DNA from: Sulfurospirillum sp. UCH001
Lineage (GTDB): Bacteria; Campylobacterota; Campylobacteria; Campylobacterales; Sulfurospirillaceae
DNA: 64,000 bases
Assembly (NCBI RefSeq): GCF_001548035.1
Contig: NZ_AP014723.1
Coordinates: 496,001-560,000, forward strand
Direction of reading: 5' to 3'
In this document: positions 52-6,188 of the stretch, in pieces
How the letters are laid out: the number at the start of each line of letters is the position of its first letter
Numbering within the stretch: the first letter of the stretch is position 1
The notes under the pieces: generated by a model
The model's database searches: none
What the model was told of the DNA's origin: nothing
The model's input: only the letters and a program-made list of their open reading frames with translations
Position numbers and translations under genes: made by a program

Positions 52-1638
52 TTGAAAAAATCGGTTATTCGTGTTATTAAAGAGAAATTACAAAGAGAGT
101 TTGTTTTAGAAAAACCTACCAATCTCTCTTTTGGTCATTACGCTACGCCTATCGCTTTTTCTCTAGCTAAAGAGTTAAAAAAATCACCTATTGCTATTGC
201 AGAAGAGATTTGTACTCAGTTTGATACTGGAGAAATATTCCAAGAAGTGACACCTATTAAAGGGTATATCAATTTCAAGTTGAGTGAACAATTCTTGGAT
301 CAGTATGCTACATGGGCAATTCAGAATGAAACTCTATTTGGTAAAGATGAACAAAGCGAAACAATCTTACTCGAATACGTGAGTGCAAACCCAACAGGAC
401 CTTTGCATATTGGACACGCACGTGGTGCAGTAATTGGTGATGCTTTATCTCGTATTGGTTCTCATTTAGGATATAAAATCACGACAGAGTATTATGTTAA
501 TGATGCTGGTAACCAAGTAGATCTTTTAGGTCTTTCTATTTATCTTGCAGGACGTGAGCATATTCTTCGTGTATATGTTGAATGGCCAGAAGAGTTTTAT
601 CGTGGAGAGTATATTGTTGATTTAGCACATGTTGCTAAAGCTGAACTCGGTAATGCTATTTTTGAAGATGAAGCAAATATCAAAACGCTTTCTGTGTGGG
701 GCAAAGATAAGATGCTTGAACTCATTAAATCTAATCTTGCCGACGTTGGTATTGAATTTGAACAATTTGTCAGTGAAAAATCTCTTTATGATAAATGGGA
801 TGAAAGCTTTGCAAAACTCCAAAAAAACGATAAAACCTATGAAGACGGTGGTAAAATTTGGATTCGTTCTACAGAGCTTGGCGATGAAAAAGATCGTGTT
901 GTTGTAAGAGAAGATGGTAGACCAACGTATCTTGCAGGCGATATCATCTATCACGATAATAAATTTCAAAGAAACTACGATAAATACATCAATATCTGGG
1001 GTGCTGATCATCATGGGTATATCACACGTGTAAAAGCAGCGATAAACTTTTTAGGTTATGATGAACAAAAACTTGAAGTTCTTTTAGCTCAAATGGTTTC
1101 TCTTCTTAAGGGTGGTGAGCCATATAAGATGAGTAAACGCGCAGGAAATTTCATTTTGATGAGTGATGTTGTAAGTGAAGTGGGCAGTGATGCGCTTCGT
1201 TTTGTTTTTTTAAGCAAAAAATCTGACACACATCTTGAATTTGATGTAGATGTCTTTAAACAAGAAGACAGCAATAATCCAATTTTCTATATTAATTACG
1301 CACATGCTCGTATTAATCAAATTTTTGCAAAAGCAGAAAAAAGCCTTAGTGATGTACAAAATGTAAAGCTTGAAAACCTTAGTGAAGATGCACAAAATCT
1401 TCTTTTTAGTGCTCTTTTATTACCAGAAGTTTTAGAAGACGCATTTCACTCGAGACAAGTACAAAAAGTGACCGAATATCTGAAGAACCTTGCTGCAAGT
1501 TTGCACAAATTCTATAATGAAAACCGCGTTGTTGGAAGTGTTGATGAATCAAAACTTCTGAAGCTTTTTGCTGTTGTTGGATTGTCTCTTCGTGTAGGAC
1601 TTAAACTTATAGGTATTGACGCAAAAGACAAAATGTAG
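52..1638 (+). CDS. argS: Arginyl-tRNA synthetase
   Basis: Class I aminoacyl-tRNA synthetase that charges tRNA-Arg in the cytoplasm. The HIGH signature is exact at residues 119-122 within NPTGPLHIGHARG, and a KMSK loop (YKMSKRAG) lies near residue 360. An N-terminal Arg-tRNA synthetase domain and a C-terminal DALR anticodon-binding region are consistent with the 528-residue length, usual for Campylobacterota. The start is TTG, with AAGG overlapping the stop of the upstream gene seven bases before it; the nearby ATG at 47 is followed at once by a stop. The nuclease gene begins three bases downstream, so the two are probably cotranscribed. Confidence 0.97.
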   Translation: MKKSVIRVIKEKLQREFVLEKPTNLSFGHYATPIAFSLAKELKKSPIAIAEEICTQFDTGEIFQEVTPIKGYINFKLSEQFLDQYATWAIQNETLFGKDEQSETILLEYVSANPTGPLHIGHARGAVIGDALSRIGSHLGYKITTEYYVNDAGNQVDLLGLSIYLAGREHILRVYVEWPEEFYRGEYIVDLAHVAKAELGNAIFEDEANIKTLSVWGKDKMLELIKSNLADVGIEFEQFVSEKSLYDKWDESFAKLQKNDKTYEDGGKIWIRSTELGDEKDRVVVREDGRPTYLAGDIIYHDNKFQRNYDKYINIWGADHHGYITRVKAAINFLGYDEQKLEVLLAQMVSLLKGGEPYKMSKRAGNFILMSDVVSEVGSDALRFVFLSKKSDTHLEFDVDVFKQEDSNNPIFYINYAHARINQIFAKAEKSLSDVQNVKLENLSEDAQNLLFSALLLPEVLEDAFHSRQVQKVTEYLKNLAASLHKFYNENRVVGSVDESKLLKLFAVVGLSLRVGLKLIGIDAKDKM

Positions 1639-4193: not shown

Positions 4194-5075
4194 TTATTCT
4201 ACGCCTCTTACTTTTTTCATCTCATCTTCTCTTTCTTTGAGGAAAAGTTCTAAATTATATTTTTGGCGGTATTGCGGTGTCATAAGATGAATGAGTACAT
4301 CTCCCATATCAATGACTGTCCAATTCTCATCAGCATCAACGTGTAAGAAACTTTCACCTGCACCTTTAAGTTCTGTTTTTAGATGGTCGAGTAGTGAAAG
4401 CCCATGTCTCTCACCCATTGTTGTTGCAATAACAACGGTATTGACAAAGTAGTCTTTGCCTGTCATATCAAATACTTGTATATCTTCTGCTTTTTTATCG
4501 CTTAATGCAGTTACGATTCTTTCAATTCTATTATCCATTGGATTCCTTGTATAAAACGCTATCACTTCATTTTCGATGGCTTTGGGGATAAATCTATGGT
4601 CCAAAAATGAGCGGAGCTTTGAAGAGCTGATATTAACATTAATTGGCAAAATTTTCAAGTCTTTTGGCGGTGTAAATTCTCCCCTTGGTGCTACAACAAA
4701 TTCAACAAGTGTACAGAGTTCGTCATAACGATTCCATTTTGGAAGTGAGGCAAAACTATCGCTTCCAACAATCAAAAAGAGTTTAGCATCAGGATATAAA
4801 CTTTTAATATGTAAAACGGTTTCAATGGTAGGAACCTGTCTTTTTTGGTCACATTCGTATGAAAAAATTTCTACTTTGTCAATGCCTTCAAAGATTTTAG
4901 CCAGCCAGCTTTGTCGTAAGTCAGCAGGAGCACAAAAATTTTCTTTAAAGGGACTGAGATAGGTTGTTACGATGAGAAGCTTGTCAATATCAAGGATTTC
5001 TAAGGCTTTTTTGACAATGAGCTCATGCCCGGTATGTGGAGGATCAAATGATCCACCAAAGATAGCTATGTTCAA
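4194..5075 (-). CDS. nadD: NadD-RsfS fusion: nicotinate-nucleotide adenylyltransferase plus ribosomal silencing factor
   Basis: One 293-codon frame covers two proteins usually encoded separately. Residues 1-179 are a complete NadD nucleotidyltransferase (GGSFDPPHTGH, SSSKLRSF), making deamido-NAD from nicotinate mononucleotide. Residues 180-293 are a complete RsfS/Iojap domain (VVIATTMGERHGLSLLDHL, NWTVIDMGDVLIHLM), which binds L14 of the large ribosomal subunit and blocks subunit joining in starvation. No stop lies between them. Met180 (ATG at 4538-4536) is preceded by AAGGAA five bases upstream, an apparent ribosome site, so free RsfS may also be made. In C. jejuni the two genes are adjacent but separate, as far as I recall. 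Confidence 0.9.
   Translation of the reverse strand: MNIAIFGGSFDPPHTGHELIVKKALEILDIDKLLIVTTYLSPFKENFCAPADLRQSWLAKIFEGIDKVEIFSYECDQKRQVPTIETVLHIKSLYPDAKLFLIVGSDSFASLPKWNRYDELCTLVEFVVAPRGEFTPPKDLKILPINVNISSSKLRSFLDHRFIPKAIENEVIAFYTRNPMDNRIERIVTALSDKKAEDIQVFDMTGKDYFVNTVVIATTMGERHGLSLLDHLKTELKGAGESFLHVDADENWTVIDMGDVLIHLMTPQYRQKYNLELFLKEREDEMKKVRGVE
4536..4547 (-). promoter_or_regulatory. Internal ribosome-binding site and ATG for a free RsfS domain
   Basis: On the minus strand the codons for Arg-Asn-Pro-Met contain AAGGAATCCAATG: a Shine-Dalgarno core five bases before an ATG exactly where the RsfS domain begins. It looks like the original start of a separate rsfS gene kept inside the fused frame. 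Translation from it would give a 114-residue protein (4194-4538). Confidence 0.55.
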
Positions 5076-5167
5076 CTGTGGGACTCCATGGACTTTAAAC
5101 TTTTTTATACATCATTTTTGCTAAAATAATTCGCTTTCCTAAATGAAAGCAGATGGATTAAAACGAC

Positions 5168-5189: not shown

Positions 5190-6188
5190 ATGGCACTCAA
5201 AATTGCTATAAATGGATTTGGCCGCATTGGAAGATGTGTTGCAAGAATTATTGATTCACGAGATGATGTTGAGTTGGTGTGTGTCAACGATACGGCAGAT
5301 CGTTCTATGACTAAACAATTACTCAAATACGATAGCGTACATGGTATTTTCCCTGGAACAGTTGAGTTATTAGAGAATGATTATATGCAAATAGGAAAAG
5401 CAAAAGTTAAAATGTTTTCAACCCGTGATCCTAAAGCTTTGAATTTTGCAGACTATGGTGTGGATGTTGTCCTTGAATGTACGGGCGCGCTTCTCACACA
5501 AAAAGATACACAAGTTTTTATTGACAATGGCATTAAGAAAGTCGTTATGTCTGCTCCTGCAAAAGATGATACTCCAACGTTTGTTATCGGTGTGAATGAA
5601 GACAAATATGCTGGTCAAGCCATCGTTTCTAATGCAAGTTGTACAACAAACTGTTTAGGGCCAGTAGCTAAGATTTTAGATGATGCTTTTGGTATTGACA
5701 AAGGTTTGATGACAACGGTTCACTCTTACACAAATGATCAAAATATTTTAGATGTTAAACACAGTAAAGATTTACGTCGTGCGCGTGCTGCTGCGATCAA
5801 TATGATTCCAACCAGTACCGGCGCAGCGAAGGCTATTGGTTTAGTACTTCCACACCTCAAAGGTCGTTTACATGGACAAAGTGTTCGTGTACCAACTCCA
5901 AATGTTTCTATTGTTGACCTTAACGTTGTTATTAAAAAAGATACAACAAAAGAAGAAGTGAATGCACTTTTCACACAACATGCGAATGGAAATTTAAAAG
6001 GTATTTTAGAAGTAGATGTTGAGCAAAGAGTTTCACAGGATTTTATAACGACAACATGGAGTTCAATTGTTGCAACAGATTTAACACAAGTCATTGGCGG
6101 CAATATGGTTAAAGTGATGGCTTGGTATGACAACGAATGGGGCTATTCGACTCGTTTAGTTGATATGGCTGTACACGTAAGCAAATAA
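5190..6188 (+). CDS. gapA: Glyceraldehyde-3-phosphate dehydrogenase
   Basis: Phosphorylating, probably NAD-dependent GAPDH, interconverting glyceraldehyde 3-phosphate and 1,3-bisphosphoglycerate. Rossmann start INGFGRIGR at residues 7-15, Asp34 as expected for NAD preference, and catalytic Cys151 in SNASCTTNC are visible; 332 residues is full length. It heads a tightly spaced set with pgk 12 bases downstream and tpiA and fabI after that. Campylobacterota generally run this segment mainly in the gluconeogenic direction because upper glycolysis is incomplete; the window does not show which direction applies. Confidence 0.97.
   Translation: MALKIAINGFGRIGRCVARIIDSRDDVELVCVNDTADRSMTKQLLKYDSVHGIFPGTVELLENDYMQIGKAKVKMFSTRDPKALNFADYGVDVVLECTGALLTQKDTQVFIDNGIKKVVMSAPAKDDTPTFVIGVNEDKYAGQAIVSNASCTTNCLGPVAKILDDAFGIDKGLMTTVHSYTNDQNILDVKHSKDLRRARAAAINMIPTSTGAAKAIGLVLPHLKGRLHGQSVRVPTPNVSIVDLNVVIKKDTTKEEVNALFTQHANGNLKGILEVDVEQRVSQDFITTTWSSIVATDLTQVIGGNMVKVMAWYDNEWGYSTRLVDMAVHVSK

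Follow-up and report, generated by a model that had tools for sequence, protein, structure and literature searches.

The nadD-rsfS junction of Sulfurospirillum sp. UCH001: a fused frame with a conserved internal rsfS start in an order with repeated changes between fused and split genes

Fusion of the nicotinate-nucleotide adenylyltransferase NadD to the ribosome-silencing factor RsfS (YbeB) is already known. A NadD-YbeB (NadD-RsfS) fusion has been recorded in Wolinella succinogenes (PMC3223725), where the protein was also termed a two-domain fusion (PMC5462765). The available parts of these two reports cover the fusion itself and an enzyme test with a negative outcome; they mention neither an internal start nor frame switching nor a second product. 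Sulfurospirillum sp. UCH001 possesses the same two domains in the same order, NadD first, in one uninterrupted frame. A second related arrangement is the overlapping unidirectional gene pair, in which translation is coupled by termination-reinitiation, as described in the accessible part of PMC10666635. The split relatives of UCH001 resemble such pairs, since their nadD ends on or around the rsfS start. By contrast, the fused state has no stop at which reinitiation could take place, so that RsfS would have to come from direct internal initiation. NadD has likewise been joined to an operon neighbor in the NadD-YqeK fusions (NCBIfam NF005519/PRK07152, 361 positions), which we take to be the Mycoplasma-type NadD-HD protein. 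The NadD part of UCH001 matches positions 1-174 of this model, but the partner is another one and the UCH001 protein, with a score of 129.9 against a cut-off of 315, is not a member. In-frame internal starts giving a C-terminal isoform are found in other genes, among them those of IF2 and ClpB. In type III secretion, SpaO-short is made in this way from the SpaO frame (PMC13059759). As there, the UCH001 locus is one open reading frame with two predicted products per mRNA, one of them the C-terminal domain alone. Unlike SpaO-short, the short product would be a complete independent protein that relatives encode as a gene of its own, and the fusion is gained and lost repeatedly. For recurrent fusion and fission around a conserved internal start, no description was found in the open literature searched, which did not extend to subscription papers.

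The window analyzed here is a stretch of 64,000 nucleotides of the UCH001 genome. Its minus strand contains a frame of 293 codons without an internal stop, or of 305 codons when extended back to the preceding stop. The following features were assigned:

4194-5075, minus strand: fused NadD-RsfS open reading frame, 293 aa; TTG start at 5075-5073, stop at 4196-4194
5084-5087, minus strand: likely Shine-Dalgarno (SD) sequence of nadD, GGAG, 8 nt before the TTG start, from direct reading of the sequence
4542-5075, minus strand: NadD domain (nicotinate-nucleotide adenylyltransferase), residues 1-178, above the TIGR00482 cut-off
4544-4548, minus strand: internal SD sequence AAGGA, within the codons ACA AGG AAT, 5 nt before the ATG at 4538-4536
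4536-4538, minus strand: internal rsfS start ATG, Met180, at the domain boundary, conserved in fused genomes
4194-4538, minus strand: RsfS domain (TIGR00090 and PF02410) and predicted free RsfS of 114 aa from Met180 (residues 180-293)

The gene gapA lies on the plus strand from position 5190, and transcription of nadD-rsfS points away from it. The NadD model TIGR00482 matched residues 5-172 of 293 with 129.5 bits (cut-off 112.45), and NadD structures in the PDB were matched as well (3dv2, aligned over residues 3-173; 1kam, E 8.5e-19). For the RsfS part, TIGR00090 scored 90.2 bits (cut-off 56.9, residues 184-277) and PF02410 80 bits (cut-off 21.6, residues 186-276), and the top RsfS chain in the PDB belonged to the 30qz/7bl2 group (E 3.2e-14). 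The reading of the frame and the scores above the cut-offs bear out the claim of an earlier note on this DNA that a complete NadD and a complete RsfS share one frame. By these models, the first part is a member of the NadD family with a predicted adenylyltransferase activity and the second part a member of TIGR00090/PF02410, predicted to bind uL14 and to block subunit joining. In an alignment of 39 fused proteins, the NadD motifs GGSFDPPHxGH (residues 7-17) and ISSSxLR (149-155) were conserved, with G7, G8, F10, D11, P12, H14, H17, S150 and S151 invariant and R155 nearly so. In RsfS of Staphylococcus aureus, the contact to uL14 is made by a D-x-G-D-hydrophobic motif and a tyrosine near the C-terminus, with Asp81 and Tyr98 (PMC7125091). 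The putative corresponding region of the fused proteins contains the invariant residues D256 and G258 and the nearly invariant D259 and Y273. In the structure model of the whole protein (mean pLDDT 88.0), the NadD domain is complete through its last helix (165-177) and an RsfS helix follows at residues 179-193. RsfS begins one or two residues past the end of NadD in this model, which leaves practically no linker; the pTM of 0.62 makes the relative orientation of the two domains unreliable. Neither a stop nor a frameshift was present at 4536-4560, and the whole genome (one contig of 2,606,563 bases) yielded a single RsfS match, so that a second rsfS copy was rejected.

At the junction, which reads TAT ACA AGG AAT CCA ATG GAT, the internal SD sequence and the ATG are intact, as the earlier note had claimed. 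Codon usage was counted in the long ORFs of the window, where AGG makes up 19 of the 643 arginine codons. An internal rsfS promoter was rejected because only weak consensus matches were found (5 versus 3.1 expected in shuffled sequences), and the idea that the RNA folds in a special way around the junction was rejected as well (z 0.18). It is conceivable that the fusion is the sole product and that the internal SD sequence and ATG arose by coincidence or are left over from an earlier state. Of 410 in-frame ATGs located inside long ORFs of the window, 22 (about 5%) have an SD run of at least 5 in front of them, which makes the arrangement at Met180 unremarkable in one genome taken alone, and the inconspicuous fold does not mark the site as specially exposed. 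Since such combinations are common by chance inside genes, the case for an internal start rests on conservation, and it is the conservation that speaks against a sole product. For this comparison, 197 distinct NadD+RsfS pairs were aligned at the rsfS start. Whether fused or split, the junction repeats AAGGA or a near relative, followed after a few bases by ATG, TTG or GTG. Among 83 distinct fused genes, 81 showed an SD run of at least 4 followed by a start codon in frame at the border of RsfS. In eight fused genes other than that of UCH001 this start is TTG, encoding leucine within the fusion, and selection for methionine in the fused protein therefore cannot explain its retention. When the 18 codons before the border were replaced by synonyms according to the codon usage of each gene, the mean SD run fell from the observed 5.04 to 2.00, and 39 of the 83 fused genes were individually significant (p<0.05), the rows being mutually non-independent and the SD score a simple run-length. 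Lineages encoding Lys-Gly (AAA GGA) at this place are uninformative in the recoding test, as their SD sequence is likely to follow from the protein sequence alone.

Within the genus, the codons ACA and AGG showed no synonymous difference among 17 distinct fused genes, compared to about 139 expected in pairwise comparisons, and the codon window 176-180 (observed/expected 0.07) was the third lowest of 283 windows. The SD sequence could be a legacy of an ancestor with split genes that decays only slowly, but it has persisted in the genus although 39% of the comparisons at other synonymous sites show a difference, which counters this idea. A second stretch of low synonymous variation in the same 17 genomes, nadD codons 138-151 (4622-4664 of the window), lies far from the rsfS start and is unexplained. 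The internal SD sequence and start are thus kept in independent fused lineages above what the protein sequence forces, and the boundary position together with this conservation suggests that Met180 is a real start. The fusion as the only product is accordingly regarded as unlikely. The retention of SD sequence and start across fused lineages also lends support to the proposal of the earlier note that two products are made, and the cell probably produces both the fusion and free RsfS.

The comparison of the junction in relatives, which the earlier note had suggested, showed that 18 of the 24 genomes in the genus share the fused frame, among them Sulfurospirillum cavolei UCH003 (NZ_AP014724); four genomes were split, one metagenome-assembled genome (MAG) had a frameshift within nadD and one gave no match. 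The survey was then extended to the order Campylobacterales, which was its full scope, with a profile built from 13 fused proteins (A1) and 397 genomes at least 90% complete. Of the 394 matched genomes, at least 76 (about one in five) were fused, a count made up of verified loci and uninterrupted rows. Fused frames occurred in 10 families, and both states in 12 genera; within Campylobacter, C. concisus has the fusion, and C. jejuni and C. coli have two separate genes. The fused frame was also seen in a complete genome of 2,110,355 bp (L198), presumably that of Wolinella. Most of genus g15 and most of Sulfurospirillum are fused, which means that large clades stay fused, and this persistence could reflect some benefit. 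In split pairs, nadD ends on, just before or just after the rsfS start, in frame 1, in frame 2 or by an in-frame stop, with frequencies of the junction frames that are biased by the preference for fused loci in fetching. On the gene tree of the 197 pairs, parsimony required 38 changes between fused and split, and 22 after branches with an SH-aLRT support below 95 had been collapsed; the tree was built from two short proteins, and gene-tree error inflates the count. The state has changed at least 22 to 38 times in the order. The four split genomes of the genus (L016, L021, L022, L023) make up a single clade that lies within the fused genomes and use two different frames, and the nearest outgroup genus of these fused genomes is also fused. 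By this nesting, fusion looks ancestral within the genus and the splits derived by frame change; outside the genus, parsimony leaves the direction unfixed, and both frame changes and in-frame stops divide nadD from rsfS. A tolerated simple stop-codon loss, the other option of the earlier note, is thus too narrow a description.

Several loci of the survey deviate from the common arrangement. A complete genome of another family contains a fused ORF of 574 aa (L254:553-2277; G481:C1:1817500-1820700), whose NadD is split by a Ser/Ala-rich low-complexity insert of about 250-290 aa and still continues into RsfS. In L084, L098 and L102, nadD apparently lacks its last 20 or so residues and rsfS follows directly after an ISSTxxR motif, the rsfS SD sequence AAGGA being kept. 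In L047, L059, L117 and L130, nadD lies on the strand opposite to rsfS, which there follows another gene ending in ...GIEAKKRM. A member of the same family, L029, shows a gap of about 280 bases between nadD and rsfS and has kept the rsfS SD sequence beside a GTG start. A handful of near-complete genomes (98-99% completeness), including G040, G126 and G180, gave no RsfS match, which may be due to assembly gaps or to true losses.

The earlier note had proposed that the fusion physically ties NAD synthesis to ribosome hibernation. According to this explanation, the fusion is functional, and NadD or its substrate or product state controls or localizes RsfS and thereby links NAD synthesis to silencing of the 50S subunit. 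Both domains are intact, the fused frame lasts across whole clades, and nadD and rsfS are neighbors even in distant bacteria, as stated in the part of PMC5462765 that is available. On the other hand, the state flips frequently, 12 genera are mixed, the start of free RsfS is retained in fused genomes and sister species manage without a fusion. Frequent flips and a retained start for the free protein fit toleration better than selection for such a link. Moreover, tests of the Wolinella fusion and of E. coli YbeB for pyrophosphatase activity and NAD cleavage were negative, according to the available part of PMC3223725. The regulatory tie is not supported, and we consider a functional fusion improbable. 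Even less probable, in our judgment, is a version in which one mRNA gives two pools, a NadD-tethered and a free RsfS, the tethered one making 50S silencing answer to NAD synthesis and single frame changes at the junction toggling the coupling. An assembly or sequencing error joining two separate genes was rejected as next to impossible: such errors do occur, as the frameshift inside nadD of the MAG G020/L003 demonstrates, but the same architecture is present in the 18 fused genomes of the genus, including several single-contig ones and UCH003.

The explanation that we regard as quite likely is that nadD and rsfS are an overlapping pair whose relative frame drifts, the fusion being a tolerated frame state in which RsfS is made by internal initiation as well. 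In the Campylobacterales, the rsfS ribosome binding site and start lie at or inside the last nadD codons of a tight tandem pair, and in UCH001 both frames coincide without a stop between them. Ribosomes starting at the nadD TTG (5075) would read through and give the NadD-RsfS protein of 293 aa, and ribosomes binding to the internal AAGGA (4548-4544) would start at Met180 and give free RsfS of 114 aa. Split relatives probably use the same SD sequence, helped by termination-reinitiation. Small indels or stop mutations located at the junction would convert the fused into the split state and vice versa at little cost, perhaps almost neutrally, because the internal start would supply RsfS in every arrangement, and such cheap conversion would explain the frequent flipping of the state. 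RsfS acts by covering uL14 and the intersubunit bridge B8 (PMC7125091), and an N-terminal NadD need not prevent the covering of uL14.

The locus is a warning that gene fusion need not mean functional coupling, since the state flips repeatedly and the start signal of free RsfS nevertheless stays. Where pipelines annotate one long ORF, they would overlook the probable free RsfS, which concerns roughly a fifth of the order. With fused genes, two overlapping frames and in-frame pairs separated by a stop, all around one SD sequence, the Campylobacterales offer a compact natural series for measuring the tolerance of fusion and fission, and the same series would also be suited to measure internal initiation inside a translated frame.
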